Origin: Sipunculus nudus
Taxonomy: Eukaryota; Annelida; Sipuncula; Golfingiida; Sipunculidae
Direction of reading: 5' to 3'
Length of the DNA stretch: 64,000 bases
Assembly (NCBI GenBank): GCA_026874595.1
Contig: CM049320.1
Span: 29,190,714-29,254,713 of the forward strand
The first letter of the stretch is position 1, and every line of letters starts with the position of its first letter. Shown here one piece after another: positions 10,762 through 50,689 of this stretch. The translations under genes were made by a program, and so were the position numbers. The notes under the pieces are model-generated. The model made no database searches. It saw nothing but the letters and a program-made list of their open reading frames with translations, and had not been told where the DNA came from.

Positions 10762-11263
10762 GCCTGTCGTGTGCGTCCGGTGGCGTGAGTGGGCAAAACG
10801 TTCAGGAGACCCCGTCTCTTTGGTGGTGTCCTCATTTGCATATTGGAATCCCCTCAGAAATTAGGTCAAACAGGTTGTATATTTTAGATAATGTAATGTT
10901 TCATGACCGTTCCACCAGGACTAATTTTTGCCATTCCATTTAAACCTAAAAAAATGTATATTATAAATGTAATTTTGCAATCATGACATTTGCGAAACAT
11001 TTTGATAAAAATGAGGATATCCCTAGAAAGGATTCCCTTCCTTTGAGGAAGGCACTTAATAACAAGCACCTCACCTAATATGGAGTTGCTCATTAATATG
11101 CATGAGTACATATGTGCACTACGTCACAGCTGACGTCATCGGGAATGGGTCAGACTATTTGGCGCCGTAACAGCGACAATGTGGCCGCACTCAAGCGTAA
11201 AATTCGGTTGTATTTATTGATATAGGTCTTTTTTTTTCTTTTTGAACCTTTGAGACAGCAGGG
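10762..11263. promoter_or_regulatory. Divergent promoter between PGD and the transposase-protease gene
   Basis: About 500 bp separate the two start codons, which point away from each other. On the PGD side, a CCAAT box (ATTGG at 10842-10846 on plus) and an octamer (ATTTGCAT at 10834-10841, ATGCAAAT on minus) lie 70-85 bp upstream of the PGD ATG. On the plus side there is TACGTCA at 11120-11126, a full CRE palindrome TGACGTCA at 11131-11138, and an E2F-like TTTGGCGC at 11158-11165. No TATA box was clear. Transcription start sites are not visible from sequence. Three diverged copies of the CRE-containing part occur elsewhere in the window, so this half moved with the transposase gene's 5' end. 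Confidence 0.55.
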
Positions 11264-11417
11264 ATGTCCTGGGCAGCAAAATTTGCTTGGAGAAAGGACG
11301 ACCTCAATGGTTATGTTACAAACATTGACCATGCACATGATCTTGTCAAAGCTTTTGAGCTTGACACATGTACTAAGTACAATGTAACATACCAGAGTAA
11401 ATCTTTTGGACGTACAG
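11264..11417 (+). CDS. Fusion gene exon 1 (start codon)
   Basis: It opens MSWAAKFAWRKDDLNGYVTN and ends with ACAG before the donor GTTTGT, in phase 1. The next exon at 21512 begins with the two bases that complete the codon (G+AA, Glu) and reads on as EFGGMNKKIWWCDAQ. The ATG has G at -3. The same exon, at varying decay, recurs at 25126 (+), 28772-28862 (-) and 30734-30890 (-), which supports its being a real functional unit. The 10-kb intron that follows carries the inverted pseudogene cluster. Confidence 0.72.
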
Positions 11418-11620
11418 GTTTGTAAAGAATTAAATAAGTGCATCAATATAAATTACTGTTACAAGTAATCCATACTCATATGAAAGCCGTGATCTTTCAT
11501 GATCTTGCAAACAAAGTCTAGGAATATTTGTCTAGGTTGCCAGTTTGGTTATCATTAAATTGTCAATAATTATGCCGGTGGGTTGCATCTCTTTAGTTCA
11601 GTAATCATCAGTTGAAAACA

Positions 11621-11651
<31 letters not shown>

Positions 11652-14600
11652 TGATAAAGAATTTTACAATGTTCGTGGACAATAAGGCCTTTCAATAGAG
11701 TTACATATACACGCAAATCAGACTTCAATCGAGTTACGTACATTCCACACACCCACAAAATAATAAAAATCATGGTTTCAGGAAATATTTTATTTAATAT
11801 AAAATGTTTCATCAAGGGCATGTCCTTTCCGTGTTATTTTAATTTTCAATCCATATATATCCATATAGGTTGTGTTTTATTACCAACAATAATTTGTGAT
11901 CAAGAAAAATGTAATTCGTGTTTTTTTTTTTTTCAAATAAAGTTTTATTTTTAAAAAAATGTATACAATATACTCTTGGTACAGACAATAAATTAAACCA
12001 ATAAAAAAGAATATTCTGATGTATGACATTACAGGAAACGTCGTTGTTGAAACATCATTAAGGCTCAGGTTACATATATGGAAAGTAACCTTTTCCACTG
12101 AAATAGTATCAAATACACTTGAAAACGAGATACTCCATTCATTCAAGTTCACATGATACAAACAAGTAATACAGAAGCGAGACCACTTGAAATCTACACA
12201 AATGCCAAGAAAGTTGTTACTTTTAAAACCGTGTTCATTTGCAAGAAATATACCGCCTAACATTTTATTCGACCCATTTGTTGCCACTCGTGAAAATGAA
12301 ACCCTGCTGCTCCTGGCATAACACCAAACTTGTATATTCTCCTTGACTTATAGATTACAAAGCGAGTGGAAATTAGGAATATTTATCGTCTTTATATGCA
12401 ATATAATATACAGCCTACTGGGAATAAATAGTTCTGGTTGAGACAATACATGGACTCTTAAACTTGGTAGAAAACACAAAACCAGTTGCTTTTATTCCTG
12501 AAATGACGTATATGAACCCCACAAACTGTAACCTACTTCACTTACCATATTTAATAATTTTATAAGTATCTGAGACAAAGCCCAAATTAGAACGAGAGCT
12601 TTAACATAACAATTGTATAATACAAAGTAGTTCCTACGGACAGATTTTAGTTTTACAGCCTCATTTTAAATTGACTAAGCGGCTATTTTGAAACTTGCAT
12701 CTTTGCATTGAGTTGTAAACTATCTATTTTCATACCTTAAGAGATAGAAAACAGGTACACAAATGGCCGATATAAATCGGGTTTTTTTTAGTATAGTTTC
12801 AAGATGCCATCTCAGGGAAAAGTCACCATACCAAGTTCATAAAAACCAAAATGCACAAGCAATTTTTTGGTACAAACTTGAGAAAAAACTTTCACTAATG
12901 TTACTTGTCACAATGTAATATGAAATAGTCTATATTAATCGACTATCATCATTATCGTGACTTTTTATAAAAAAAGACCCGTGTATATACTTTATTCACA
13001 TTTATAGCAATAATACAAAGACGACTGAAGAAAATGCATGGCGTATTACAACTTGGTCGGGGCCTGGTTCAAAATTTCTGTTCAAGGTTCGTTAGGTGAA
13101 GTTGTTCCTCCAGAATCGTTCCTATATTAACGATTTTGAGCAAGCACATGGGTTTTATAGAAGTACATGAAAAGTACTTTGTGTGTGTGCGTGTGTGTGT
13201 GTATATATATAAATATATATATATGCGTGTGTATACATGAACGTATAAATATAAATTGTTTGACAGTTTATAACTAGATGGAAATTAAAATACATACATA
13301 TACAAACGTATATATGTACAGGTGTATGTATGCATACACATACATGTATGTATATACATATTAATTTATATTGATGATGGGCAATGGTCAAATTAAGTTG
13401 CCTGCAAACATGAAAGTTAAAATTATATTTTCATGATATGCGGACTATTTTTTTTAAATATTTTTTTTCAATAAGTCAACCTATTGTACTTTGCAAATCT
13501 AAGCTTCAGTCCAATTAAAAATACTGTTTTGTAGTTTTTATTTTTATTTTCGTGTCATCTTTAAACTTGCATATGACTATACTTTCTGCTGATAACGTAG
13601 TGTGACACTAGGACATTCATCTGTAAAAAAAAATATTGGAAATATGGCAAGGTGACAATATCTGCAGATACAACATTCAGTTCATTTATTTTAAGGCCCA
13701 TATATGCACTTCCTCTGTCCTTGTAACATATAACACAGGTTGTTAACCTCATTTATACTTAATGTTATGCACCTATCTGTACTCATGACACATACCTGGC
13801 AGGTTATTGTTAGGCTTGTATCTGTTATTATTACACATTCCTGGCAGGTTATTGCAAGCCTCGTATATTATTATTATCACATTCCTGGCAGGTTATTGTT
13901 AGGTACCTCTCTCTATTTATAACACATCTATGACAGGTTTTTATCTGTACTTACGACACATACCTGGCAGGTTAGTGCAAGGCTCATATCTATGTTTATG
14001 ACACATACCTGGCCGGTTATTGTTGACACCTATCTAAAACTATCATGACACCTATGTATAACTGGCCGGTTATTGTTGACACCTATCTAAAACTATCATG
14101 ACACCTATGTATAACTATGACATGCCTGGCAGGTTATTGTTTGGCTCATATCTGTACCAATGACATACCTGGCAGCTTATTGTTAGGCAAATCTCAGTAC
14201 TTTATACACATACCTGGCAGGTCATTTTTTGGCTCATATATGTACTCATGACACGTACCTGGCAGGTTATTGTTAGGCTCATATCTTGACTCATCCCACA
14301 TACCTGGCAGGTTTTTGTTAGGCTCATATATGTACACATGACACCTACCTGGCAGGTTATTGTTAGGCTCATATCTGTACTAATGACACATACCTGGCAG
14401 GTTACTGTTAGGCTAATATCTGTACTGACATACCTGGCAGGTTATTGTTAGGCTTATATCTGTACTCATGACACGTACCTGGCAGGTTATTGTTAGGCTT
14501 ATGTATGTAACTATTACAAATACCTGGCAGGTTACTGTTAGGCTCATATTTGCAATTATTATACATTAATGGCAGTTTGTTAGGTTCATATCTGTAGTTT

Positions 14601-17600
14601 TTATACATATATGGTAGGTTATTGTTAGCCTCACATCTGTACCTATAACAGATACCACATAGGTTATTGTTAAGTTCATATCTGTATGAACCTGTATTTA
14701 ATACAGATAAATTCTTGAACTTTTGGGTTTGACCTATGGGCAAAAAAAATCTTGTTTGATTGATAAAAGGAAGTGTTTCTTTTTCCTGCCCATCAGTTAC
14801 TTCCATGAGGTCCTCTGAGTCAAGATTTGCTGAGGGACTACAATTTGGGTCTTCAACATATGGGCAGAAAAAAAAATGAGGTCATCTGGTGACTCTCTGG
14901 ACCAATCCTGAACCAGATGTTTAAGATTTTCATGGTCAATCTTTGAATAGCGAAGCTTAATACTGGCTTGATATATGATTTCTTATGGTCACATTTGATG
15001 GACAGAAACGTCTATTCCCTTTGTGTAATCTTTTCCCTATCAAACAATTCTTTTGACACAAAATGAGAAATGTGACTCCTCATCTCAAGGACACTGAACA
15101 CTCCTCCTTTTACAAGCTCTTCTCTTTCACTGGATTACTTTTAACAAATATGTGACAGGATATTGTTGGATCAACAAGTCTCCTCCAATAACACCAATCA
15201 GTCTCGTCAAGTCTGAGGAAGACACTGTCCAAGTAAAGACTGTATGAACCTGTATTTAATACAGATAACAAATTATTGAACTTTTGGGTCTGACCTATTG
15301 GCAAATAAATTTCAATTTCAACTGACTTTCTGCCAACTCTTTCATGTGACTGATTATTTCAGCTTCACAGAAGTCCACCATTCCAAATCTAGGTTGCTAG
15401 CCCGGATTCCACTGCTTTAGGATTGATAGTGCTTCTGTAATTGCTGCAGTGTTTTCATATTGGACCACAAAAGAGGCCACCTTGCTGTAGTCCACGTTGG
15501 TCTACACGCATAAAAAAATAAAGGCAGGGCATATTTTGTTGTTTTATATGTAGCTTCAAGGAGACAAATCTCATTTCCATATCTTTTCAACAGATGCTGT
15601 TGAAATCTTGTTTGATTGATAAAGAGAAGCGTTTCTTTTTCCTGCCCATCAGTTACTTCGAGGTTCTCCGAGTCAAGATTTGCTGAAGGACTAGAAGTTG
15701 GGTCTTCAACATATGGGCGGAAAAAAATGAGGTCATCTGGTGACACTCTGGACCAATCCTGAATCAGCTGTTTCAGATTTTCTTGGTCAATCTTTGAATA
15801 GCAAAGCTTAATGCTGGCTTGATATATATGATTTCTTATTGTCACATTTGAAGGACAGAAACGTCTATTCCCTTTGATCTTTTCTCATCAAACATTTCAC
15901 TGTCTGGGGAAGACACTGCCCAAGTAAAGACTGTTCAGTGCTCCAGCCCCACTTGGGACAAGCGACCCATGGGTCATGAAACTCAGCCAAATGACATTTT
16001 GACAATGTGTCCTTGCACAGGCAAATAAGATATTTTGTAGGTGATATAATCATTCATGCATATTGGTTTTAGTTCATCAAGACCAATAACCAACCGTTGA
16101 CTACACCTAAGCACACTGTATTTAATAATTGAAATTTGAAAGGCTCCTATCTGTACTTATACTATATACCCTTCAGGTAATAATTGTTAGGCTGCTCTCT
16201 ACTTGTAACAAACATATGACATGTAATTGTTAGGCTCATATCTGAGATTATATACACATGAAAAGTTGGTTAGGCTGACAGGCTGACATTTAATTTTTAC
16301 ATGTACCTGACAGGTTAATGTTAGGCTCCTCTAACCTGTCAGGCTCACCTCTCTACTAAATAAATACCGGACCCGTTATTGTTAGGCTAACCATGAAAAA
16401 TTAATGGTTTACCACCAGTTACTTTGTAGACCTGTCACCCATGTATACAACATACCAGATAGGGTGAAGGAGTAGAGAGAGGACCCTGATGCATTGTCTG
16501 GCTAATTTATCTACTTTACACATTATCTACTTTACACATGCCTGACAGAAGTCTAATATCAACAACCGTTGACTACACCTAGGCACACTATTTAATAATT
16601 GAAAGTTTTTCTATTATTCCGCGCGGCAGGGGTGGGGGGGAGGGGGGGACAACTCCATGATCAATATGCATGCAAAGAATCATGGTGATCAATGCATTAG
16701 TTGTTCAGAAACTGGAGCTTTTGTATCAAATATTATATTATTCTTGGGGGGAAGGGGGGGGGGGGGGGGGGACTTCTGAACCCAATAGCTCAGGAGTATA
16801 TGGGTAACAAAGACCTAATTTCAGGTTTCCAAGGAGAATTTTCATGATCCTCCCTGGATGTCAAGTTGCAAAGTTCCAGGTCCAACAGTTAAGATTTGTG
16901 CCTGGTTAACGGTTGGATGACTGACAAAGAGTGATCGCTATAGCTCAGATGACTTTCTGTCAGCTGAGCTAAAATAACAGGAACACTGCACAAAAATGTT
17001 TGCATGGTAAATGATGATTCTGCCAATCTTGACTTTGTGTATGTGCCATCAAGTTATTGTGCTTTTCCAGTGGCCAAGCACATGTTTGACTACTTCTCTG
17101 GGTCTGTTCCACAACCATGTTGGAAGAAATGAGTTGTATTGACAGAACTTGGGCATTTCTTCATGCTGGTACAGCAGCATGAGTGATTTTTCTAAAGCAC
17201 TGGCACTGCACATCTGTATGTCAGATCTTTTACACAGGTCAGCTTTTCCCTGCATTTAAGTGCCTTTGTTTGTACAAGGTCTTGTTTTGCTGGTTGTTCA
17301 CGTGAATCTGGAGTCAGGTTGGTCAACATCTCATGTGTACCTTGCTCCTGTGGGGTGACATGTGGTGGTTCGTCACTGAGACCAGTCACTGTCTCGTCAA
17401 GTCTAAGGGAAGACACTGTCTGAGTAAATACTGCTCATAGAGCTCCAGCCCCACTTGGGAAAAAACTGGAACACTGCACAAAAATGTTTGCATGGTAAAT
17501 GATGTTTCTGCCAATCCATGCAAGTACACGATGGAGAGATACTGTCATCCCCAAAGATAATCGTGTGTTTCAGTGATTCATCACTACTCTCACTCTTTAC

Positions 17601-20600
17601 CAGAAAACGGCCGTCCTTGACTTTGTGTATTTGCCCTGCAGTTATTGAGCTTTTCAATCCAAGCACAAGTTTGACTACTTCCCTTGGGTGGTTCCACAAC
17701 TATGGTGTAAGAGATGTCTAAAGGGAACTAACTTGAGAATTGTACATCATACAAACTTATGCCAGGTTGCTAGGCTCCTATCTGTACTTATAACATATAC
17801 CCTTCAGGTAATAATTGTTAGGCTGCTCTCTACTTATAACAAACATATGACATGTAATTGTTATGCTCATATCTGAGATATCTGAGATTATATACACATG
17901 AAAAGTTGGTTAGGCTGACAGTTAATTTTTACATGTATCTTACAGGTTAATGTTGGGCTCCTCTAACCTGTCAGGCTCACCTCTCTACTTACTAACAAAT
18001 ATCGGACCCGTTATTGTTAGGCTAACCATGAAAAATTAATGGTTTACCACCAGTTACTTTGTAGACCTGTCACCCAGGTATACAACATACCAGATAGGGT
18101 GAGGGAGTAGAGAGAGGACCCTGATGCATTGTCTGGCTAATTTATCTACTTTACACATTATCTACTTTACACATACCTGACAGAAGTCTAATATCTGACA
18201 TAAGAAACCTGATATGGTTCTTGTCAGGTTCATCTGTAATTATTACAGATACCCAAAAGGTTATGGAAAGGCTTACACCTGTAAATATTAAAGATTTATG
18301 ACATTTATTTTTACACTTATATCTGTTAATATTATACATTCCTAGCAGGTTATTTTTAGTCTCATCTATGTTTGTGACATACCTAGCAGGTTATTTTAGT
18401 CACATCTATGACACATACATGACAGGTTATTGTTAGGCTCATACCTGTACTCATCACACATACATGGCAGGTTAATTTGTCTCAATAGCTTTACTCATGA
18501 CACTGGCAGGTTACTGTTAGGCTCATATCTGTTATTATTACACATTCCTGGCAGGTTATTGTTTGGTACCTCTCTCTACTTATAACACACCTATGACAGG
18601 TTTTTATAAGACTCATTATAATGGGAAATGTTCATCATAAAACCATAAATTACAGATATTGTGTCTCCTACAGCATCATCAGTTAGGCCAAAAAAAAAAT
18701 TAAAGGTATGGTTCTCAGGCACCGGCTGCATCAATTTTAAACCCGCGCATCAAAATTTTTTATTTTGATTTTCAATAAAAACTTTCCAATTTTGAGCTGC
18801 TGCCCCTCCTACATTTCTTTCAAGAAGATAAAACCATACAATTTCCTTTGTTTTGTAGTGCTTTTACTTATTTAGCAAAATAAAACTTATTTTCATGCTT
18901 TTCCCTTATCATTTGACATTTTTATCGAAACATACCAAAAAATTTTAAAAATTTAAAATAAAAAAGCGCAAGCCCACATTGATTTCTGAAAAAAAGTGCC
19001 TAAGAACCATACCTTTTTTTTTATTTTGGCCTTAGGGAGTGGAGCATATGATTTAGTTCCAATGTTGGCCTGTAGGGGGCGATGCCATCGTAGGGCAAAT
19101 TTTCTGTGCAGTTTGAAAAGAAACCAATAAAATTTCACCAATCTTTCATCTTGAGGAGTTAAGGGCGTTTTTGACAAGAAAGGGGAATCCATTTAGACTG
19201 AGGTTCTTATTATTGTACATGTAGAAGTGTAAAGACATGCTGCATGGCGAGTCAAACCAATGGTTTACCACCAGGTACTTTTTTGACCTGTCACCCAGAA
19301 TGTATACATACCAAATAGGGTGAGGAGAGTACAGAGAGGACCCTGATGCATTGTCTGGTTAATTTATCTACTTTACACATACCTGACAGAAACCTAATAT
19401 CTGACATAAGAAACCTGACAGGGTTATTGTCAGGTTCATCTGCAATTATTACAGATACCCGAGAGGTTATTTTTAGTCTCATCTATGTTTGTGACATACC
19501 TAGCAGGTTATTTTTAGTCACACCTATGACACATACATGACAGGTTATTGTTAGGCTCATATCTGTACTCATCACACATACATGGCAGGTTATTGCTAGG
19601 TTCCTCTCTACTTATAACACACTCATGACAGATCATTATTACGTTTTAGTTCCAACTTTGGCCTGTAGGGTGCGATGCTATGGTAGGTCAAACTTTCTTT
19701 GCAGTTTGCATAAATTTTTTTTTTATCTGAAGGAAGTAGGGCATTGGTGACAGGAAAGGGGAATCAATTTTGACTCCAGGCTTTTTTATTGTGCAAGCTG
19801 AAGAAATTTGTTACAAGTAACGAGAGGAGCCTGACAGCTTATTGTTAGGTATATATCCACTTGTTACACATACATGATGTATCGAAAGTTTCAGATCTTA
19901 TGTTTCCTGTTGCATCATTAGGTTTGAATGTCACTTGGTTATACATACCATTAGATAAAAATTGTTTAACATGGCATTATCATGATAGGTCTCAGCATTT
20001 CACAACACTTAATCATGCAAACATCACCATCAGTTACATATACTGTTTCACATAGCATTATCAGGTAGTAGTAGCACTGTGCATCATGTTTCAAGTAAAA
20101 CATTAAGTATACACATTGTGTTTCACATAGCGTAGTTAGATATGGGTAAATTATAATACATATTGTCACAGAACAGATAAAATTACACCCTGTATTATTC
20201 CCTGTAGCATTACTTGGTTTGGATGTCATTGGGTGTAACACATACATACACTGTCATATCAAATTATCAGGTAGTACTAACTTGTGCACTATGTTTCTAG
20301 TAAAACATTAAGTAAACACATTGTTTCACATAGCATAATTAGATATGGGTATATTAAAATGCATATTGTCAAAGAACAGTTAAAATTACACCCTGTATTA
20401 TTCCCTGTAGCATCATTTGGTCTAGATGTCTTTGGGTGTAACACATAACATGAGGTGCACAGTCAATATGCCAACATCACCATCCGTTACATACACTGTA
20501 TCATATAGAATTATCAGGTAGTAGCACTGTGCACCGTGTTTCAAGTAAAACATTAAATACACTCATTGTTTCACATAGCATAATAAGATATGGGTACATT

Positions 20601-32600: not shown

Positions 32601-35600
32601 TCTGATATATAATATAAAATATATGATTCTGATTGTTTTGAAGCCGACACCAAAGTTGACTCGGTAGCAGCAAGGCCAGCCACAGATACAGTGGTTACAT
32701 CAGCTAACAGTGCTTCAACTCCACCTGTTATCCATGGACTTAATCACAAGACTGTACAGTTTGCTGACCCAGGTAAAGAAGTTTTGAACATGTTATTTTT
32801 ATGAGACTGGATGTCCTGGTAAAAAAAAAATCTTCACAAAAGCGACAAATTTAATGGTTATAATATTGACACCATCCTTTTTCATTTATGGCTTTTGTGC
32901 CAGGCATTTTTAAACTACTGTATAATGTACTTGATGAGCAGGCATCTTAGTGTTTTTGACTAAATATACACATCTCCAAATAAACCAAAAAGAGGCCTGT
33001 ATTCACTCATTTTGCCTGTAGATATATCAATCATGTTGTATACATGCTCATTGAATATGCTAGGTATACCTGTCTGGAATAAATTATGCAGCATATAAAC
33101 TAAAGTGTTCCAACACTTTTTATGGATTCAAATATTTACGATTCAGCAGCACCTTTTGCATTTATACAGTTGTGTCAGATGTGAGGGTCATACATGACAG
33201 CCTGCAACCTGGTGTATCCAATTCAGTGCAAGGTATTGTGTTTCACATGGCATCATGATATCCAATAAATTCTCAATGTCCAGGTATTGTTTCACAAATC
33301 ATCAAATATAGGTTTAAAGATTTTCAAAAGCCTAAATACTTAGAATTTCTGATTGGGGTTTTCCTATTAAAATTTGAAATTAAATTAAAGGTAGATTTTA
33401 ATTTAAGTAACAGGATATTTGTTTGACTAGATATGGCAATGAAATATATCACACTAAATTAGAAACCGGCGTCACTTATTTTTGTACATCCTCCAGTTCC
33501 TGCCAAAGAGTGGTTATTCAACAGCTCAACCGGAAAAGCAGTTACAAAAGTGGGCCCATACGTGTGCTGTGATTACGACATCAATTCACTGAAACCTTCT
33601 GCAAAAGGTCAAGATGGCTGGCTGACAGACCAGGTACATACCTTCATATAAATTAGTATATAGCTTTTTATGGACATGTGGACAAACATTTGGCTGATAG
33701 CCAAAGGACACTGATTAACAACAGTTTAAAAAATGGCCAGAAAATAAAAAGTTCAGGACTCATAGGAGACTTGCCCAGGACCCCCCTGGATTACAATAGA
33801 AGGTTCCAAGGAAAATGGATAAATTTGAACCTTGTCCGTATGGGTGCTCAAAATCATGTTTGCGGTCCGTAGCTAGCAGAAAACATGTCATCATGATCAA
33901 ATTTCAGGTTTCAAAGGAGGATTGCCAAGGATTTCCCTTAATGTCATGTTAGAAGAGTCTAGGGCGAATGGATACAATTTGTGCCTTACTGTCTGGGTGT
34001 GCAATACCATTTTTCAGCCAATAAGCCACACAATTTAAGTCACCATAACCTAAATTCAGGTTTCTAAGGACATTTGCCTAGGACATCCCTTAATGTTGGA
34101 GGATTCTAGGCCTATTAGGTACTATTTGTGCCCCATCTGATTGTCTGGGTGCTCACAATCATGTTTTCAGCCCAAAGGTCACAAAATATAGGTCACCATG
34201 ACCTTATTCTAAGTTTTCATGGAGATCTGCCTAGAAACTCCCAGGAAATTGTGTAAGATTTTGATCCTCACAGATACCATTTGTCCCCATCTGACATTCA
34301 GGGTGCTCATATGACAGCTTTTCCCTATAGGTCGCACATTATAATTTATAGGTCACAGTGACCAATTTTAAGGTTTCCAAGGACATTTGCCTAGGATAAC
34401 CCAAATGTCAGGTTAGAGGTGCCTAGGATATCCCAAAATGTCAGGTTAGAGGTTTCTAGGCCTAATGGATACAATTTTTACCCCATCTGACTGACTGGGT
34501 GCTCAAAATCATGTTTTCGGCTGTAGATCACAAGATATAGGTCACCATGACCCAATTTTGAGTTTCCAAGGAGATTTGCCCAGGACCTCCATGGATGTAA
34601 TGATAGAATTTTCTAGGTCTAACGGTTAGGATTTGTGCCCTGTTAACGGCCGGACAGTAGCCGGACTAAAGATTATCGCTATAGCAAAGATGGCATTCAG
34701 CTGAGCTAAAAATCTGAAGTATTTACATTTGATTGTGTATTTTACAAAGGGTTTTATAAAAAGGGATGGCGAGTCCCTTGTCTAAACAACCACCTTGATC
34801 TGGGATGGGGATTGCATGGGATATTCTTCAGGTTTGAAGATGTCCCAGGCAAAGTAATAGAAAATACAGGCTTACCAATTTACACAGTATTAACTCTGAC
34901 CACTGAAATTATTCTATGTGTAGATTTAAGAGATGACTGTCAATTGGGGGGTATCTGCGGCTTTCTTGTGGAATGGCATTTAATGTAAATCTATTATTTT
35001 TCAGGTAGTTGATGCATATTTAGAACTTTTGGTTGAAAGAGCAGTTGAGAATGGATGCAAGGTTCTACATTTGGCAACTCAAACAAGTACCAGCATTGTG
35101 GATGGTTCCCTGATTGGGAAATGTAGCAAAACCTTTTCAAGGGTAAATCTGACAAGTCATTCTTAATTATGATAATTTACCCAGGAATATTCTTACATCT
35201 GAACATTTTCGTTGTGACAGTATAAGAAAAATATAAGAATTTCTCTATTCATAACATGAAAGATTTAAGTAGCACACCTAGATGACCAATTAACATAGAA
35301 AGTTTTCATTCTTATCGGTTCTGGGTCCAGATTAAACACAAACTACAATCCAGTATTAAAATTTATAAGGTGTCACTTTGTTTGGAATTATACAAGGTTC
35401 AGTGATAAAATTAAATTTTAACCTTCAATAAATTGCATGATGTTTGAACATGCATATTAAGAGGTGGTAACAAAAAAAAAATTTATGGAAAAATGACACT
35501 AGCTATGAAGTGAGATCACCTAACATGCTGTTATTGGCCTTTCAGATTAAACTACTGGCATACAAGTATTTGATTGGAGCAGTCAATATACAAGGCTGCC

Positions 35601-38600
35601 ACTGGACACTCATTGTAAGTCTGTCCCTCTATCATTTGTTATTTCTGCTCTAATGTTTCTATTTCTGCTCTAATGTTTCTATGTCTACTGGAGATATTAT
35701 CTGGCACTAGGGCACTGCTCATACTACACAAGGTTCTCTTGTGACACTGAATACAGGTGAATTTTGCAGAGATGAATTCTGATGATTTCAATATTCATGA
35801 GGAGTTTCGTACAAATCCAGTTAAGCAAGTCGTCATAGTGTCACCAAGTCTTGTGATATATGACCTGATTAAAATTATGAACAGTTAAATGACAGACATT
35901 GGGTATTCCATAATGTTCCATGGCTCTGCGTTTGCTAAGCCATTTGTTATGTGTGAATATATCAAATAGGCACAAACATTGGCATTTATTGCAATGTTTG
36001 ACAGAAATGAAAATATTTTTGGGCATCATGACAGGAATATATTTGGAGATGATGCTTGTACTTAAATTTTGTTCACTGGGAATATGGTACTTATTATATT
36101 GCAGCCATTTTATTACACAACTTCTTTAGAACTTTTTAAAGACTTCCACAAACATTTTTGCTGAGATTAAATATCAATAGAGAAATGATGTTTTCTCATT
36201 TTTTTTACAAAAGGTTGTTGATTGTTCAAGCTACATCATATGGCTGTACGATCCGATGGGGGAGACTGAACATCTCAAGCAGTCTGTTCTTACAAACTGG
36301 AGGTAAGTTAATTGCTATGGTTGTAACTTGGTGATGAGTGGTGAAGTGGCTAATGAGATAAAAGGTGATAGATTTTGCACCATCTCTGTTGGAAACATCA
36401 GTCTGAAAATAATTCTATTAAATATAGTATGGACCTAATTTCCCTAGCTCAAAGGAACCCTTGCGTATGATTTGAAAGCTAGAGTTCTATTAACAGAAAA
36501 AGATAATTTTGGAGCACAGGAAAGTAACACTGGTGGAGCCACCTGCAGGTTATAATAACAGTATTAAAATGTCAGTCATGTGCCCAGTCCGTAAAATCTG
36601 ATGAAGAAAGCAGCACTGGTCTTACAGATATTTATTAAATAATGGGGCAAGAATGACAGACAAGGGAAATCTTGCCCCACAGCTCGAACGATATAGGTCA
36701 CACTGACCTAATTTCAGGTTTCCAAGGAGTTTCTTTGACCTCCCTGGATAACACATTTACAGGGTCAGCAGTATGATTTTTGCCCTGCTAATGGATGGAG
36801 GGACAACAGACAAAGCACCATTCCTGTAACTCAACAAGTGACCCATGGGTCAAGACGCTCAGCTGACTGGGAAGAGATTCGTAAAAAGGAAATTTTATCC
36901 TCAGAATGGGAGTATATACCCATTCAACTGAAGCATCGAACAGATTAACCAACAGGCCAAGATTAAGTCTGTATTTATATATCTCAAAAACAGAGAAAAA
37001 ATGTGTAAACTTTAAAATTTAGAATACGGGTAGCCGACAAGTGACTACGTGTATCAGCCAAAATCAGAGTGGAACGGGTGAAGTGAGGCATGGATTGAGT
37101 GGCAAGGGGAAATGGAGTGAGGTATGTTGCATATTAGCATGGATGTCTGCAGCATTAACTAGAATTTAGGTGGCGCCACCTGTCATAAAATCAAAAAAGC
37201 TGTCCAGAATGTATAAACCTGCAAAATTTTAGGCAGTTATGTCAAACCACTACAGAGAAAGGAGTGCTTTTAAGCCTCGGCAGACAGACGCTGTGCAAAA
37301 ATGGTTGCAGGTGGCCCCTCCAGTTTTGTGTATGATAAAGACCTTTGTGAGATCTAAACACATGACCAATTTTGGGCCAATCGGTCAAATGGTTCCTGAG
37401 ATACGAGCTTGGATGTGTGCAGCGTTAACTAGAATGTAGGTGGCGCCACCTGTCATAAAACCAAGGAAGCTGTCCAGGATGTATAAAACTGCAAAATTTT
37501 AGGCAGTTATGTCAAACCCATACAGAGAAATGAGTGATTTAAGGCCACGTCAGACAGACAGACGCTGTCCAAAATGTGCAAAAATGGTTGCAGGTGGCCC
37601 ATTCAGTTTTGTGTATGATAAAGACTTATGTGAGATCTATACATATGCAAAATTTTGGCCAAATCGTTCAAACTGTTCCCGAGATGTGAGCTTGGATGTC
37701 TGTAGCGTAAACTAATGTAGGTGGCGCCACATGTCATAAAATCAAGAAAGCTATCCAGGATCTATAAAACTGCAAAATTTTAGGCAGATATGTCAAACTA
37801 CTGCCGAGATACGAGTGACATTATCTAACGGCAGACAAACAAACGGACACTGTGCAAAAATGGTTGCAGGTGGCCCCACCAGTTTTGCTTATGATAAAGA
37901 GCTATGTAAGATCTATACACGTGCAAAATTTTGGCCCAATCGGTCAAATGGTTCCCGAGATATGAACTTGGATGTCTGCAGCGTAAACTATAATGTAGGT
38001 GGCGCCACCTGTCATAAAATCAAGAAAGCTATCCAGGATGTATAAAACTGCAAAATTTTAGGCAGATATGTCAAACCACTGCCGAGATACGAGTGACATT
38101 ATTCCACAGCAGACAAACAGATGGACGCTGTGCAAAAATGGTTGCAGGTGGCGCCACCAGTTTTGTGTATGTTATAAAGCTATCCAAGGGCTACATTTGT
38201 ATAAATTTTATTTCCTGATGGGTCAAATGTTTCCCCAGATATGAGCTTGGATGTCATCAGGCACCAGTTCACATGTGACCCGATAATTGGTTTAAGTTTC
38301 GGTAAAATGGGTCTATTAGTCTCAGAGGAGTTCTCTGGAAACATACGTGGTGGCGGCGGAGGAACCCGGTCAAAAACATAGTATCCGCAAAACTTCGTTT
38401 TGGCGGATACAAAAATACAGGTGGCTCCACCAGTCTGCAGAAACTAATAAAAACACTTAATGGTCAATATCCATGCAAAGAATCATGGTCATCTCAGCAT
38501 CAGCTGTTCAGTTACTTATTTTTTTTATTAAATTGTCCATTATTCTGAGGGATACTTCGGAGGCCTATAGCTTTAAGGATATGGGTAAAAGAGACCTAAT

Positions 38601-40733
38601 TTCTGGTTTCCATGGAGACTTTTCATAGGTCTCTCAATGTGTCGAGAATGAAGATTCTAGGTCCAGTCGTTACGATTTGTGCCACGTTAACAGATGACAG
38701 CATCCTTAAAGGTCTCAAAAATTGAGGAAAAATCGTAAAAAATCTAAAAATACAGGTGGCGCCACCAGTCTGCAGGAACTGATGGAACGTCTCATGATCA
38801 ATATGTATGCCAAAAATCATGACCATCAGTCAAGTAGTTAATGAGATATTGAAGTTTTTGTATGAAATTTTTGACTTTTCGGGGGGGGGGGGGGGGGGGG
38901 GTACTTTGGGGCCCCATAGCTCAAAGGATATGGGTAACAGAGACCTAATTTCTGGTTTCCTAGGAGATTTTTCATGGACCTCTCAGAATCCCAAGTTACA
39001 AGGTTCTAGGTCCAGTGGTTACGATTTGTGCCTGGTTAACGGACGGACGGACGACGGACAAAGAGAGATCGCTATAGCTCAGATGACTTTCAGTCAGCTG
39101 AGCTAAAAACCCACTCAGTCAGCTGAGCTGAATAAAATTCCTTTTTTTTTCCTTCAGAAATTTTATGGAAAGGAGGGTGGAAAATGGACTGGAAGAAACA
39201 AATGGACTGTGGACACTGAAAACCAAACATCACCCGAAGCAAGTTGATAGCTTCAACTGTGGAATCCACATCTTATTTGTGAGTAACATTAACTTAGTTA
39301 TACATTTGTTTCTTTGGTATCCAAATTCATCTAGAGCTTGTAACTTATTACATACTTAATGAATTTTCAAGTGTGTTCTCGAAGGTTTGAGACTATGGAA
39401 TCTGCATGGTAATGCACTTTACCACCTGTACGATGGTCAAAATGCAATAGCTAGAGCTCAGCATGACTAAAAGTCATCTGAGCTAAAAAAAAATTTTTGT
39501 GCATGTGCTTAGAAAAGAGTCCGATGGAGAAGCTCGCTTATATTGGGATCACAACTTTATCAAGATGACCTTCAAATTGTTCACTTATTGAAAAGAAAGA
39601 AAGACATCTCTAGAGTGGATGAAGACTTTTCAAGATTTTGCATAACAAAATATTCTAAAGAAATTTGGACTGGTGTTGCCAGAAATTTCTACAATTTCTC
39701 ACATGAATTGACTTTACAGTATGCTCGCCATCACCTCAGTCACACCGATCTACCGCTCAAGTTTGACCCACAGAGTGAGAGAGTAAACATAGCTCGCGAG
39801 CTCCTCAATAAGAAAGGTAATTATACTTAAAGTTATTTTTTTACAGTGATATGACTTTTGTTAGGCCCTTGTGACCTCTCAGAATGAAAAGTTACAAGAT
39901 TCTAAGTCCAGCGGTTACGGTTTGTGCCAGGTTAACGGACAGACGGACGGACGGACAGACGACGGACAAAGAGTGATTGCTATAGCTCAGCATGACTGAA
40001 AGTCAGCTGAGCTAAAAATCATGACCATCTGTATTGTAGTTATTGAGATGTTGCATTTTTTTTAAATCAAATTTTCCATTATTCTGGGGGGTAATTGGGA
40101 GCCCCACAGCTCAAATGATATGGGTAACAGAGACCTTATTTCAGGTTTCCATGGAGACTTTTCATAGGTCTCTCACTGTGTCAAGAATGAAGATTCTAGG
40201 TCCAGTCTTAACGATTTGTGCCCTGTTAACAGATGTCAACATTTTTAAAGACCTCAAAAACAGAGAAAACAATTCGTAAAGAACCGAAAAATACAGGTGG
40301 CGCCACCAGTCTGCAGAAACTGATGAAACATCCCATGATCAATATGTATGCCAAAAATCATAACCATCAGTGATGTAGTTAATGAGATATTAAAGTTTTT
40401 GTATGAAATTTTTTACTATTCTGGGGGTACTTTGGGGCCAAATAGCTCGAAGGATATGGGTAACAGAGACCTAATTTCTCGTTTCCAAGGAGATTTTTCA
40501 TTGACCTCTCAGAATGTTAAGTTACAAGATTCTAAGTCCAGCGGTTACGATTTGTGCCAGGTTAACGGACAGACGGACGGACAGACGGACAAAGAGTGAT
40601 CGCTATAGCTCAGCATGACTGAAAGTCAGCTGAGCTAAAAATCATCTTTTTAGGCAGTAACTTATGTAGATTACAAATGTAATAATTTTTTTTTACAGGA
40701 AGTTCACCTAAAATGCAACAGAGCCTACAGTAA
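11264..40733 (+). CDS. CaRF-like / MULE transposase / SWIM / Ulp1-protease fusion gene (17 exons, 1201 aa)
   Basis: Exons: 11264-11417, 21512-21684, 21960-22088, 23928-24071, 26468-27164, 27867-28108, 28518-28693, 29323-30128, 32644-32772, 33170-33232, 33497-33633, 35005-35142, 35546-35614, 36214-36302, 39158-39278, 39513-39816, 40699-40733 (TAA). They total 3606 nt, and every junction phase matches. Domain order: CaRF-like N-terminus (about 1-200), MULE DDE core (about 200-570), SWIM zinc finger (653-667), variable linker, Ulp1 peptidase (about 950-1090), C-terminal tail. Inferred catalytic residues are D357, D418 and E535 (transposase), and H1015, D1032, Q1077 and C1083 (protease). Family knowledge: MULE enzymes cut and join DNA, and Ulp1 enzymes cleave SUMO-like tags. 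What the fusion does is unknown: it may be an active transposon, a domesticated gene, or one member of a large family. A possible poly(A) signal AATAAA lies at 41014-41019. Confidence 0.85.
11627..11651. repeat. Long G homopolymer (G25), one of about ten G/C tracts
   Basis: Others: G11 9107-9117, C23 10517-10539, G18 16754-16771, G13 22934-22946, C27 32501-32527, G21 38881-38901, C17 52107-52123, C16 53454-53469, C19 63629-63647. They are striking in an AT-rich background. Exact lengths may be affected by sequencing. Confidence 0.9.
12290..13560. other. No gene recognised: AT-rich part of intron 1
   Basis: A CA/TA-rich microsatellite patch at 13180-13360. The 135-codon minus frame at 11880-12287 is A/T-run driven, with no recognisable motif. 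Nothing else supported. Confidence 0.5.
13775..14660 (-). repeat. 45-bp satellite array, inverted orientation
   Basis: Minus-strand monomers of the 45-bp family (CCTGCCAGGTATGTGTCATG ... AGATATGAGCCTAACAATAA). It is more diverged than the arrays at 31.5 and 45.5 kb, with indels. It sits directly downstream (in minus sense) of pseudo-exon 5, so the satellite and exon fragments may have been inverted together. Confidence 0.85.
14749..15125 (-). pseudogene. Inverted pseudo-exon 5 fragment (transposase), copy 1
   Basis: Reverse-strand reading matches the first half of exon 5 of the fusion gene, from the ELVQEG region through DDLIFF to VTDGQEKET. It has small deletions, loss of frame in the MFDEKR stretch, and a longer A-run in the FF codons. 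A downstream 25-base piece at 15216-15240 matches SVFLRLDE of exon 8, so exon pieces are joined out of order. It lies in intron 1, antisense to the host transcript. Confidence 0.8.
15340..15900 (-). pseudogene. Inverted pseudo-exon 5 fragment (transposase), copy 2
   Basis: Longer and better preserved: it reads TIRNHIYQASIKLCYSKIDQ, then the LLEATYKTTKYALPLFF region, and on to the FGMVDFCEAE region near 15340-15400. The first catalytic Asp is changed to Glu (EATYK), and a frameshift follows PLFF. Bases 15900-15965 continue with a piece of exon 8 (SWIM side, FPKWGWS). Copies 1 and 2 share about 60 bases of flanking sequence (14690-14750 and 15247-15305), so this block is a tandem duplication. 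Confidence 0.82.
16138..16560. repeat. Segmental duplication, left copy
   Basis: About 425 bp nearly identical to 17763-18195, in direct orientation and starting 1.6 kb apart. The copies flank the pseudo-exon 8 cluster. The content is degenerate 45-bp satellite (TTGTTAGGCT, minus-strand sense) and a block GAGAGAGGACCCTGATGCAT. Confidence 0.85.
16740..16975 (+). repeat. Hairpin-ended dispersed element (3' part)
   Basis: It contains a G18 tract (16754-16771), the TATGGGTAACAAAGACCTAA block and the terminal hairpin TAGCTCAG...CTGAGCTA at 16941-16971. It is adjacent to the pseudo-exon 8 cluster. Confidence 0.75.
16985..17721 (-). pseudogene. Inverted pseudo-exon 8 fragments (SWIM), rearranged
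   Basis: On the minus strand, 17721-17200 matches exon 8 from MWNHPREVVKLVLG through the intact finger SCTCMDWQKHHLPCKHFCAV to SALEKSLMLL. It then jumps back to the exon start (CQYNSFLPTWLWNRPREVV, about 17160-17040) and ends with a second short finger piece, HHLPCKHFCAV (about 17030-16985). A frameshift sits near SVFP (17403). The layout is a head-to-tail, partly deleted duplication. No flanking introns of the source gene are carried along. Confidence 0.8.
17763..19600 (-). repeat. Segmental duplication right copy plus degenerate 45-bp satellite
   Basis: 17763-18195 duplicates 16138-16560. Part of it (the GACCTGTCACCCAG ... GAAACCTGA block) appears a third time at about 19260-19440. Between and after lie irregular minus-sense 45-bp monomers (GGCAGGTTATTGTTAGGCTC). 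An unrelated 'CGCCCCCTACAGGC' family fragment (minus) lies at about 19010-19200. Confidence 0.7.
19870..20820. repeat. Tandem repeat, period about 205-245 bp
   Basis: The block TTACACCCTGTATTATTCCC recurs at about 20183, 20387 and 20631. The TTTCACATAGCAT and AAGTAAAACATTAA blocks recur in step. About 3.5 imperfect units, in intron 1 of the fusion gene. No coding potential is seen. Confidence 0.75.
21512..24071 (+). CDS. Fusion gene exons 2-4: CaRF-like DNA-binding region
   Basis: Exon 2 (21512-21684) reads KTYGFHLDFDGIPYVILGRR followed by LMECQNGPDRNKA. Exon 3 (21960-22088) contains the NCPAAIYMREIAKFPQYK segment. It is in a different frame from the longest open frame there and starts right after a TAG acceptor. 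Exon 4 (23928-24071) starts ITNDDLYLRAKIASDIRQ. This pattern of an LDFDG(I/V)P core, a CPA(x)(I/V) block and a short basic region is what I know from proteins annotated as calcium-responsive transcription factor-like (ALS2CR8/CaRF) in invertebrates; assignment is by memory of motifs only. Exon 4 ends GAG before GCAAGT, so intron 4 is predicted to be GC-AG. Confidence 0.75.
22217..23803 (+). repeat. Hairpin-ended dispersed element, long copy (about 1.6 kb)
   Basis: It begins ACAAGGGACCCATGGGTC (palindrome 22227-22238) and ends with the hairpin TAGCTCAG...CTGAGCTA (23770-23800) plus AAAA. The interior includes the repeat shared with 1690-2250 and a G13 tract. In intron 3 of the fusion gene. Whether it is one element or nested ones cannot be settled by eye. 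Confidence 0.6.
24330..24557 (+). repeat. Hairpin-ended dispersed element, truncated
   Basis: It carries CAGGTGGCACCACCAGTC, a GTTAATGGCC...GACTGACAAACGG block and a decayed terminal hairpin ending CTGAGCTAAAAA. It abuts the next element, which starts ACAAGTGACCC, with no spacer. Confidence 0.65.
24556..24862 (+). repeat. Hairpin-ended dispersed element, short complete copy (about 305 bp)
   Basis: Left palindrome GACCCATGGGTC at 24564-24575, right hairpin at 24829-24859 followed by AAAA. This is the smallest apparently full-length copy and the best guide to the ends. Confidence 0.8.
24961..25260 (+). pseudogene. Decayed copy of fusion-gene promoter and exon 1
   Basis: It contains TGACGTCA at 24990-24997, the GGAATGGG(T/C)CAGACTATTTGG block, the poly-T leader and the exon 1 reading AAKFDWRKDNLNGYVTNIEQ. 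The third codon is TGA (25132-25134) where exon 1 has TGG, and the donor is lost near 25240. It is thus a non-functional copy in intron 4, on the same strand as the host gene. Confidence 0.8.
25374..25990 (+). repeat. Hairpin-ended dispersed element, complete copy (about 615 bp)
   Basis: Left palindrome 25381-25392, followed by CAGCTGACTGGGAAGAG. Right hairpin 25955-25985. The interior matches the first kilobase of the 36.8-39.1 kb copy and has one unit of the about 275-bp repeat. Confidence 0.8.
26468..28693 (+). CDS. Fusion gene exons 5-7: MULE DDE transposase domain
   Basis: Exon 5 (26468-27164) carries TIRNHIYQASIKLRYSKIDQ, typical of the region before the DDE fold. It then has the first acidic residue in LLDATYKTTKYALP and the second in FGMVDFCEAEI. 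Exon 6 (27867-28108) supplies CDFHREQAW, the C-x2-H motif characteristic of MULE transposases between the second D and the final E. Exon 7 (28518-28693) supplies the third acidic residue in NTNNGIERQNR. All three are present, so the domain is predicted to be competent for catalysis. The exon 7 donor, AG before GTTTCA, is weak, but it gives the correct phase to the SWIM exon. No stop or frameshift is seen. Confidence 0.85.
27200..27490 (+). repeat. Hairpin-ended dispersed element (3' part)
   Basis: Shares TTTTTGTATGAAATTTTTTA, the G-run, ATATGGGTAACAGAGACCTA and GGTTAACGGACAGACGGACG. The terminal hairpin at 27452-27483 is the 32-nt variant with CATGACT and a GAA loop. In intron 5 of the fusion gene. 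Confidence 0.75.
27491..27683 (+). repeat. Hairpin-ended dispersed element, short 3' fragment
   Basis: Matches the tail of the 22.2-23.8 kb copy (CAAAGACCCAGTTTTTGGCT ... GACGGAC) and ends with a hairpin at 27646-27676. Placed directly after another copy, i.e. nested or serial insertion. Confidence 0.7.
28130..28480 (+). repeat. Hairpin-family left end (fragment) in intron 6
   Basis: ACTAGGGACCCATGGGTCTT then GACGCTCCGCTG. No hairpin end follows before exon 7. The remaining intron sequence shows a short duplicated phrase, ACTAG(T)...ACCTTTTGTAGT, near 28411-28482. Confidence 0.55.
28772..28862 (-). pseudogene. Short inverted fragment of exon 1
   Basis: The reverse strand matches the YVTNI...HDLVKAYELD part of exon 1 only. 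It lies in intron 7 of the host gene, antisense. Confidence 0.7.
29323..30128 (+). CDS. Fusion gene exon 8: SWIM zinc finger and basic linker
   Basis: After PTWLWNRPREVVKHVLGRW comes SCTCMDWQKHHLPCKHFCAV, a SWIM finger of the form CxCx9CxH (residues 653, 655, 665 and 667). This finger commonly follows MULE transposase domains and is thought to bind DNA or partner proteins. The rest of the exon is polar, with a Lys/Arg-rich stretch (SGKRTLPSLPLRRISKKIKQ) that could serve as a nuclear localisation signal. I end the exon at CAAG before GTATGA (30128) because phase 1 then matches the next exon; without splicing, the frame runs to a TAA at 30211. This leaves an alternative unspliced product that lacks the protease. 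Confidence 0.83.
30715..31475 (-). pseudogene. Inverted promoter + exon 1 copy with an intact exon 1
   Basis: On the minus strand, 31475-31360 matches the GGAATGGGTCGGAC...TATTTACTGATATAGGTC leader. This is interrupted by foreign sequence at 30920-31360. Then 30890-30734 is a full exon 1 with open frame: ATG, SWAAKFAWRKDSLNGYLTTI to FFGRT, and the donor GTTTGT. Unlike the other copies, it has no stop and keeps its splice donor. It sits in intron 8, antisense to the gene. The CRE was not found in what remains of the leader. Confidence 0.75.
30925..31320. repeat. Tandem pair of about 184-bp units
   Basis: CTATGTTCAGGAGC recurs about 184 bp apart, near 30998 and 31182, together with CACACCAAAAAT and GCGAAAAAAAGTC blocks. 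It interrupts the inverted exon 1 copy. Confidence 0.7.
31500..32400 (+). repeat. 45-bp satellite array within intron 8 of the fusion gene
   Basis: About 20 monomers in gene orientation, each with CCAGGTATGTGT or a close variant (CCAGGTATATGT, CCAGGTAAGTGT). It is open in several frames (EYRYEPNNNLPG in one). It is followed by a C27 tract at 32501-32527, just before exon 9. Confidence 0.93.
32644..33633 (+). CDS. Fusion gene exons 9-11: linker leading into the protease
   Basis: Exons 32644-32772, 33170-33232 and 33497-33633 all start in phase 1. The first is Ala/Thr/Ser-rich and looks disordered (ADTKVDSVAARPATDTVVTS). The second is only 63 nt (VVSDVRVIHDSLQPGVSNSV). The third enters a folded region (VPAKEWLFNSSTGKAVTKVG, ending GQDGWLTDQ); the GWLTDQ-VVDAYLELL junction resembles the WLxDxxI start of Ulp1/SENP domains. 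Exons 9 and 10 both begin and end in phase 1, so either could be skipped without breaking the frame. Confidence 0.7.
33690..34712 (+). repeat. Hairpin-ended element with internal tandem repeat of about 160 bp
   Basis: The block GGGTGCTCAAAATCATGTTT recurs (imperfectly) near 33842, 34003, 34147, 34306 and 34496, each with TAGGTCACCATGACC. The right end is GTTAACGGCCGGACAG...TTCAGCTGAGCTAAAAA, with a decayed hairpin. In intron 11. Confidence 0.75.
35005..39278 (+). CDS. Fusion gene exons 12-15: Ulp1/SENP (C48) cysteine protease domain
   Basis: Exons 35005-35142, 35546-35614, 36214-36302 and 39158-39278. The catalytic His is in GCHWTLIVVDC. The Asp is in IIWLYDPMGETEH, exactly 17 residues after the His, as in yeast Ulp1 (His514 to Asp531). 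The oxyanion Gln and nucleophile Cys are in KQVDSFNCGIHIL, six residues apart, as in Ulp1 (Gln574 to Cys580). The complete tetrad and conserved spacing argue for selection on protease function. Family members remove SUMO or related tags; the actual substrate here is unknown. The 2.9-kb intron before exon 15 holds the largest hairpin-ended repeat of the window. Confidence 0.85.
36833..39107 (+). repeat. Hairpin-ended element, 2.3 kb, with internal about 275-bp tandem array
   Basis: Left palindrome at 36840-36851, followed by GCTCAGCTGACTGG; right hairpin at 39075-39105. The core 37130-38175 holds about four units carrying GGTGGCGCCACC at 37169, 37439, about 37720 (one mismatch), 37998 and 38147. 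G21 lies at 38881-38901. It occupies most of intron 14, just before the exon with the protease Cys. Open frames over the array track the repeat and are not genes. Confidence 0.8.
39420..39490 (+). repeat. Hairpin-ended element, terminal fragment
   Basis: Only the end remains: AGCTCAGCATGACT, AAA, AGTCATCTGAGCT plus poly-A (39455-39485). The poly-A leads straight into the acceptor region of exon 16. Confidence 0.7.
39513..40733 (+). CDS. Fusion gene exons 16-17: C-terminal tail
   Basis: Exon 16 (39513-39816) follows the catalytic Cys exon in phase 0. It reads LILGSQLYQDDLQIVHLLKR through to LKFDPQSERVNIARELLNKK, with a likely final protease helix. Exon 17 (40699-40733) adds GSSPKMQQSLQ and a TAA. 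The first ten residues of exon 16 (KRVRWRSSLI) do not look like the hydrophobic segment usually found after NCG in this family, and the +2 frame of the same bases reads ESDGEARL. A small frameshift or a different acceptor is possible. The exon 17 call rests on splice signals and phase only. Confidence 0.6.
39850..40018 (+). repeat. Hairpin-ended element, 3' fragment
   Basis: GACCTCTCAGAATGAAAAGT, GGTTAACGGACAGACGGACG, hairpin 39983-40014. Immediately followed by another copy. Confidence 0.75.
40019..40642 (+). repeat. Hairpin-ended element copy in intron 16
   Basis: Two related half-units in tandem (CATGGAGACTTTTCATAGG then CAAGGAGATTTTTCATTG), GGTGGCGCCACC at 40296-40307, hairpin 40606-40637. 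It ends 56 bp before exon 17. Confidence 0.75.
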
Positions 40734-41019
40734 CCCTTCAAGAATCACAGGATGGCAAGTTCACCTTGGACGAGGGTAGATTCGTTACACAATTAATACC
40801 AATTACATATCAGACTGGGCTATTATTTTAGGTTCTAGTATACAGCAAATTGCAATTTAACATTTCAAAGGCAAAGTACCAAAAAATGATCAATTAATAA
40901 TCTATTGATCTGTCACCAGTCATTTTTAATTTTCGTTCATTTATTATGATTGTAAAACCGATTCCTACCACTGTGTGCAAAATATAAAAACTTGACTAGG
41001 GATGACCAAAGGGAATAAA

Positions 41020-41995
41020 CAGATGAATACTCTTGTTCATTGTCAGGTAATGTAAAATATATATATTTTAATATCTGGCTAACATGAAAGAGGTATACTT
41101 TTTCAAATCAATAACATGCCTTCTGGTATTTCAAGTTACATGCATACATTACATATTACTGAGACTACTGTAATACTATGACTGTTCATCTGTGTAGATA
41201 GGGCAACTTATCCTTTCCGGATTAAAGTTTTTTCCTCAAATCTTGTATGAAGTTTCATGTATATCACAAATAATCCCTTCTGATTGCTAACCACAGTATC
41301 TGGTTACAAGCTTTGTAATGATTAATTCATGTTAATTGGTAAACGTTAATTCTTTGACTGTCTGTTTATACAATATTGCCTGTATAAATGAAAAATAGCA
41401 TATGTACATGAAAACATGCAGACCTCTGAAAAAAATATACAAGTGAATAATAGTCTGAATAAAATGTTCCTAATGTATAATTGGAGCCAATTACCTTAAT
41501 GCATTTACCTGTGTAACAGTATTAACAGTTAAAACTCCAAGTCACAGGCAAGGGCAACCAATGTTTCAGGCAGTTAAGTTTTGTTGTTATAACCTATTGT
41601 AGGCAGCCAAAAGCAAGTCTCAGGCAATGCCCTGGGGAAAAAGAAACCAGGTTTGGGCAGTCTAAAACCCTACTGAGTGATACTGACCTTGAATACTCAA
41701 ATACATTTATATTATATTTATATCATCTTTACAGCAATCAAACTATAACCAGCCTTGCTTCACAATCTTGAGGCGAAATTTTCCCCAGCTGAATGTAGAC
41801 ACCATAAACATCAGGCAGGTGCTTCATTTGATACCCGTTGGTCAAATTAAAATTATCTGGGAATCCTGAAAGCATAATAGATAATGTTAACTAACACAGC
41901 TGAGAAATCAGGGATTGCATTATTATGTAACCCTTTCAACTTAGCTTAAGCCACGCAATTTTTTTTTTCCTATCTAAAAAAATGTGAAGTTCAAG

Positions 41996-42051
<56 letters not shown>

Positions 42052-50235: not shown

Positions 50236-50689
50236 CAATCTGAAATAAAATGAGTCCTTTCAAGAACAAGTCAACGGTCTTATTATTTCAGAAATGAGAC
50301 AGATATGTGTGGTCTTTATAGCAGAAGTTCAAAATTTGAGCCAATAATCTAGGATTTTAAAATATTTTTATAGAGCACACACCGTTTCTTGGTTATAGGA
50401 CATCAATCATGTAGTACTGTAGTATTGGTCTTATTGTATATTCATATTATTAAACGGTGAAAGCGCAATATAAGTGACCTGCCACGATTTGCCATTAGTC
50501 TTGCTTAATTTGTTCATTGAATAAAGTTCTATAGTCTTATTTTTATGTGCATCTGATAAAAATGTGTGCACCTTGTTGAAATCATCAAGTAAGCTTCACG
50601 TCGGTGTGAGAAAAGTAAGGACACACCATCAGTAAGGAAGCCAGTTTTAGGCAAGTCACCTTTACTGCACTCTCACAATATTAAACAAT

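Follow-up and report, generated by a model that had tools for sequence, protein, structure and literature searches.

What kind of genetic unit is the long, many-exon gene that joins a transposase to a SUMO protease in the genome of Sipunculus nudus, and does it belong to the host or to a mobile element? The locus lies in a stretch of 64,000 nucleotides (contig CM049320.1, positions 29,190,714 to 29,254,713), referred to here as the window; positions are those of the window unless another contig is named. An earlier account based on the letters alone (the sequence-only reading) had described a fusion gene of 17 exons encoding 1201 residues without a frame error, and had treated it as a stand-alone gene. 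The fused frame and its domains were upheld by our analysis, but the stand-alone status was not, as the gene proved to be the transposase gene of a transposon with terminal inverted repeats (TIRs) at 11047-51017. Very probably, this interval is an apparently complete and recently mobile Mutator-like element (MULE) of about 40 kb with a 16-exon frame, which would be expressed as one mRNA, encode a fusion protein and move by cut and paste, with a part played by the protease.

Rebuilt from the raw sequence, the gene runs on the plus strand from an ATG at 11264 to a stop codon ending at 40733. These are the end points given earlier, and the frame is intact, but the rebuilt model has 16 exons and 1,097 residues. 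Exon 1 (11264..11417) encodes residues 1-51, begins 217 bp in from the left end of the element and is identical in a second copy on contig C11. Exons 2 (21512..21684), 3 (22002..22088) and 4 (23928..24071) encode a CaRF-like domain, the end of which lies in exon 5 (26468..27164) together with a DDE core containing D343 and D404. Exon 6 (27867..28108) carries a CDFH motif (C-x2-H), exon 7 (28518..28693) the third predicted catalytic residue, E521, and exon 8 (29323..30128) a SWIM zinc finger at residues 633-659. Exon 9 (32644..32772) is a linker of 129 bp. A Ulp1/SENP-like domain begins with GWLTDQ in exon 10 (33497..33633) and continues through exon 11 (35005..35142), exon 12 (35546..35614, with predicted catalytic His980), exon 13 (36214..36302, Asp997) and exon 14 (39158..39278, Gln1042 and Cys1048) to its end in exon 15 (39720..39816), while exon 16 (40699..40733) includes the stop codon. 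Intron 4 is of the GC-AG type (donor AGAG/GCAAGT); all other introns are GT-AG. Phases match at all 15 junctions of the spliced model, although this agreement alone is weak evidence because the splice sites were picked with the phases in view. In the protein search, a 1,247-residue open frame was listed for exons 5, 6 and 8 of the window; no single frame in the window's own list of open reading frames exceeds 304 residues.

The CaRF-like, MULE DDE, SWIM and Ulp1 parts recognised in the sequence-only reading were all recovered above the Pfam gathering cut-offs in the profile search that it had proposed. In the spliced protein, these are ALS2CR8, the CaRF family (residues 67-256, 5.6e-42); ZSWIM1-3_RNaseH-like (residues 306-422, 1.6e-11); MULE PF10551 (residues 340-428, 2.1e-7, 31.7 bits against a cut-off of 27.6); SWIM (residues 633-659, 8.7e-6); and Peptidase_C48 PF02902 (residues 911-1064, 1e-8, 35.7 bits against a cut-off of 20.7). 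DUF5646 and Peptidase_C5 were also listed, both under their gathering scores. The seven predicted catalytic positions are D343, D404 and E521 for the DDE core and H980, D997, Q1042 and C1048 for the protease, and the CDFH motif of exon 6, between the second D and the E, is the C-x2-H motif of MULE-type DDE transposases. The retention of all seven residues had been claimed before, along with the protease spacings, and both held: D997 follows H980 by 17 residues and C1048 follows Q1042 by 6. Against the set of PDB sequences, the protease core matches SENP5 best (1.6e-9) and also SENP1 and SENP2, and its H, D, Q and C positions and WLxD motif align with those of SENP5 and SENP1, where the four residues are catalytic. 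Judged from PF02902 and the His-Asp-Gln-Cys alignment, this part is a predicted protease of the Ulp1/SENP type (C48). When the protease part was scanned against NCBIfam, a single match came up, at E 0.011 and far under its cut-off, and for the N-terminal 290 residues the PDB set yielded nothing beyond weak matches to levanase (best E 0.047).

How the exons are joined bears on whether there is one gene here or two. Nine of the 15 junctions (E2/3, 3/4, 4/5, 5/6 and 10/11 to 14/15) are crossed by profile or PDB alignments. Diverged loci on contigs C1, C17 and C3 share the position and phase at which exon 5 ends, and the C3 locus also matches the start of exon 6. Residues 967-1053, covering most of exons 12 to 14, form a single uninterrupted open stretch on C1, C17, C15 (at 28.99 Mb) and C3, which supports two joins among these exons, and a further exon in the protease core is not needed, as the SENP alignments cross its five junctions without a large gap. 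The two joins that make the fusion, E8/9 and E9/10, lie outside the nine and are drawn from matching phases, from splice signals and from a lack of start codons. It is here that an alternative enters, in which the same transposon holds two genes, one for a CaRF-DDE-SWIM transposase that stops at 30211 and another for a SENP-like protease. Such an arrangement would fit the lack of homology support at these two junctions and the fact that exon 8 stays open through to a stop at 30211 when its donor is unused. However, phases and splice sites link exon 8 to exon 9 or exon 10 with the frame unbroken, and exons 9 to 12 offer no in-frame Met ahead of the catalytic His. There is in fact no in-frame Met anywhere across residues 765-999 of the spliced protein, so the protease exons could not begin a protein containing His980 without another 5' exon. 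We therefore regard two separate genes as unlikely and infer splicing from the SWIM exon to the protease exons. Exon 9 may be optional in such a transcript because it is 129 bp long with equal phase on both sides, so exon 8 also joins exon 10 in frame. A transcript in which exon 8 is left unspliced would instead encode an 853-residue form without the protease.

The boundaries of the larger unit are defined by its ends. The transposon (11047..51017, plus strand, 39,971 bp) begins with a left TIR of 92 bp (11047..11138, plus strand) that matches the right end (50927..51017, minus strand), once inverted, at 92% identity, and both ends read GGAAGGCACTTAATAACAAGCACCTCACC..., arranged as inverted repeats. 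The same 9 bp, TTCCTTTGA, stand on both sides of the element, at 11038..11046 and 51018..51026. The high-identity match to the copy on C11 starts and stops at the TIRs, and beyond them, the flanks of the C15 (window) and C11 copies show no match of at least 150 bp at 93% identity or more. That second copy (43,508 bp) is flanked by a different duplication, the 10-bp GTGACTTCAA, and a further site around 7.04 Mb on C15 (the third, C15b, 17,893 bp) by the 9-bp ATTTTTTCA. A Mutator-like element is recognised by just such features: target duplications of 9-10 bp, long TIRs and a transposase of the MULE type.

The second copy was found in a search of the animal's own assembly (1.43 Gb in 153 contigs) with exon 5. 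All 16 exons were located on C11 with an intact reading frame, and a neighbouring relic lies there inverted and spaced as in the window. Aligned globally, the window copy finds a C11 partner for 39,652 of its 39,971 bases. With four long tandem arrays left out and indels uncounted, the two copies differ at 29 of 29,404 non-coding positions and at 3 of 3,294 coding positions; the arrays themselves differ at 92 of 6,954. All three coding changes (D143N, D370A and S462P) are non-synonymous, and none falls on a catalytic residue. As the coding and non-coding rates are equal and every coding change is non-synonymous, these two full copies give no sign of selection. A proposal that the coding sequence is less diverged than the introns, drawn from a BLAST comparison of the two copies (110 mismatches in 26,222 aligned bases), was dropped, since the rates are equal once the tandem arrays are removed (Fisher p = 1). 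The copies align nearly end to end, nested repeats included, so that at the time of its move the element must already have been close to its present size. That two copies, of 40 and 43.5 kb, lie between different target duplications and show only 29 differences in 29,404 non-coding positions indicates recent movement at a size of 40 kb.

Long, near-identical blocks can also be produced by segmental duplication or by assembly error, and the 40-kb unit might have spread in this way and not by transposition. This is very improbable, since three sites share the same exact ends while carrying three different target-site duplications, and an uninterrupted paralogous target adjoins the third copy. 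The C15b copy is an internal-deletion derivative that matches window positions 11047-21928 and then continues from 44378 onward, lacking window 21,929-44,377; exons 1 and 2 alone were seen of its gene. It sits in a tandem repeat, the adjoining units of which contain the target uninterrupted, with 2 mismatches in the target, and so represent a paralogous relative of the empty site.

A domesticated host gene of the CaRF or ZSWIM type, lying by chance in repeats or a duplicated segment, has been largely refuted by the same observations. Such a gene could well be split into 16 exons by long introns and show the purifying selection seen between diverged loci (described below), and the Pfam families in question carry the names of the host genes ALS2CR8 and ZSWIM1/3. 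Yet the boundaries are TIRs, the target-site duplication differs from site to site, and two near-identical full copies on different contigs are accompanied by shorter TIR-bounded stretches, which leaves a chance placement of a host gene with next to no likelihood.

The transposon reading extends to a wider family. Searching the genome with the TIR gave at least 28 matches, 14 of which were paired by eye into seven convergent pairs spanning 2.85 to 43.5 kb. Exact target-site duplications of 9, 10, 9 and 9 bp were present at four of the seven pairs, and a 10-bp duplication with 2 mismatches at one; none was present at the remaining two pairs examined. The shortest pair (C10:9863768-9866616, 2.85 kb) has kept exon 1 and is without a target-site duplication. 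Whole-protein searching found the fuller exon set at the window and C11 only, within 42 scored of 193 candidates, and 31 of the 46 exon-5 matches in the assembly contain stop codons, indicating that the wider family is mostly broken.

The element also contains repeats and relics. A 45-bp minisatellite of about 104 units occupies 45567..50237, 3' of the gene, and the C11 and C15b copies have the array too. Stretches of the same 45-bp unit (15 codons, open in several frames) occur in introns at approximately 13759-14686, 18411-18589 and 31486-32363. A 17-base piece of the minisatellite is found 27 times in the C15 stretch versus 31 times in the C11 stretch, so the arrays change. Another tandem array, with a 278-bp unit, lies at 37131-38255 between exons 13 and 14. 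Intron 1 holds a nested relic of a related element (14747-17747, minus strand), in which pieces of exons 5 and 8 lie inverted and contain stops; the longer pieces are 86-93% identical, and exon-5 relics stand at the same relative place in all three copies of the family. Further pieces, copied in part from exon 1 and from the left end and 80-87% identical, are scattered in the introns at 24955-25249 (plus strand) and at 28771-28855, 30665-30921 and 31364-31473 (all minus strand), and these pieces are probably the remains of nested short derivatives.

More distant relatives were found on C1, C17 and C3, which match some 108 residues of exon 5 at 55-57% identity. Each has a Peptidase_C48 match some 12-14 kb downstream of the exon-5 match on the same strand, and on C3, an exon-8-like open frame, 30% identical, lies between the transposase and Ulp1 matches. 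The C1 and C17 copies are near-identical (99.4% over 5.7 kb) and, with a locus on C15 at which the Ulp1 part and no more was seen, form a second DDE/Ulp1 lineage (C1:80281593-80301379, C17:5306367-5326166 and C15:28987822-28995878) with 97-99.6% identity in the compared stretches and one end in common. At the one C1/C17 end tested, where C1 and C17 part, no TIR was found, as there were three matching places but no inverted partner; this lineage is accordingly not called a TIR transposon, and the fusion within a TIR element is seen for the window/C11 family only. The Peptidase_C48 matches on C1, C17 and C15 at 28.99 Mb each contain one TAA upstream of a 96-codon open stretch, and the second-lineage genes that carry it may be broken.

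For the window compared with C1 or C3, dN/dS values are saturated and are read here only as pS versus pN. Between the diverged C1 and C3, pN is far below pS in the DDE part (103 codons; pS 0.90, pN 0.19) and in the Ulp1 domain (87 codons; pS 0.74, pN 0.17). With pS near saturation and pN this low, both domains have been kept by purifying selection in the lineage of C1 and C3. The Ulp1 domain is the less conserved of the two, with 29 of 86 aligned residues identical between the window and C1, whereas the DDE part has 61 of 103. Its H, D, Q and C positions are nevertheless retained.

Family membership predicts that DDE chemistry acts on the TIRs and that a C48 domain removes SUMO. In the proposed mechanism, transcription would begin near the left TIR and give a single spliced mRNA encoding the whole fusion. 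Binding to the TIRs would fall to the CaRF-like and SWIM parts, and the DDE core would cut and join the DNA, moving the element by cut and paste. The tethered protease, acting in cis, could strip SUMO from the transposase, from chromatin or from repair proteins at the cut site, and the removal of SUMO might in turn raise transposition or ease silencing by the host.

A fuller scenario, which we offer tentatively and consider rather less likely than not to be right as a whole, is that the MULE moves as a single 40-kb unit with 16 exons, that its tethered protease de-SUMOylates the transposition complex or silencing chromatin, and that the CaRF DNA-binding domain may descend from such transposases. 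With this element, the ALS2CR8 (CaRF) and ZSWIM1/3 families gain a relative that is a transposon, and on the basis of these domain matches, both CaRF and ZSWIM1/3 may have such an origin; we found no open-access literature joining ALS2CR8 or ZSWIM3 with a transposase. The intact gene, the deletion derivative and the defined ends together make possible a direct test of whether a tethered SUMO protease aids transposition.

In a review of giant transposons, the efficiency of DNA transposition is stated to fall past approximately 6 kb of cargo, and none of the Pack-MULEs of one large survey exceeded 7 kb (PMC6431247, in the text available). The 40- and 43.5-kb copies indicate recent movement at a size far beyond the limits discussed in that part of the review. 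In the open-access literature, with Repbase outside its scope, we found no MULE of 40 kb and no example with 16 exons or with the CaRF-DDE-SWIM-Ulp1 combination. Among the accessible portions of other MULE accounts, one with 39 MULE in its curated library makes no mention of Ulp1 (PMC10294476), and a description of MULE-derived FHY3-type factors in animals, including molluscs, does not mention CaRF, SWIM or Ulp1 (PMC10027918).

As a kind, the joining of Ulp1 to a Mutator transposon in animals is not new. The sequence-only reading had implied novelty in an animal, which does not hold, since hydra, lancelet and plants all have Mutator transposons that encode Ulp1, according to PMC2836005, which cites Repbase Reports. 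The hydra and lancelet elements (MuDR-type) are, like ours, animal Mutators encoding Ulp1; the S. nudus element is a 40-kb unit with 16 exons and CaRF-like and SWIM domains. The same source suggests that the Ulp1 and OTU domains of transposons are active in transposition, for example on DNA repair. In PMC6446971, the MULE transposases that another report had described for lancelet sequences could not be confirmed.

Kaonashi, the comparison chosen earlier, turns out to be a poor match. Plant ULP-MULEs, including Kaonashi, and CACTA-ULP elements resemble the S. nudus element in tying a ULP domain to a DNA transposase, and rice proteins containing both Tnp2 and ULP1 domains are described in the same source (PMC2528002, as far as its available text goes). 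However, Kaonashi MULEs have no TIRs, and their ULP domain runs opposite to mudrA, whereas the S. nudus element has TIRs and a single reading frame for both parts. With its TIRs and with ULP in the orientation of the transposase, the element is not Kaonashi. In Ginger1, a single transposase protein has a C-terminal Ulp1 or OTU domain, in some cases with introns (0-4). Ginger1 differs in its Gypsy-type integrase core, its CCGG/CCGT target duplications and its length of 2.6-7.1 kb where Table 1 of PMC2836005, in the portion available, gives one. Membership in Ginger1 was considered and is ruled out by the MULE core and the unrelated 9-10-bp target duplications.

Further counterparts come from a survey of 50 MULE groups with TIRs of 14-500 bp and, in its Table 1, target-site duplications of 8-11 bp (PMC6446971, main text as available), a range into which our exact 9-10-bp duplications fall. 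The main text of that survey contains no occurrence of Ulp1, protease or intron, and for mollusc groups 15 and 19, it records neither a zinc finger nor any additional motif. Phantom, Rehavkus and mollusc MULE groups share with the S. nudus element target-site duplications of 8-11 bp, long TIRs and, in some, a SWIM domain, and aphid Phantom has a minisatellite 3' of the transposase open reading frame, like the 45-bp array described here (PMC6446971). On the protease side, SENP1, SENP2 and SENP5 have the His, Asp, Gln and Cys positions and the WLxD motif in common with the S. nudus protease, which differs from them in being fused to a transposase and in a similarity of only about 40 bits.
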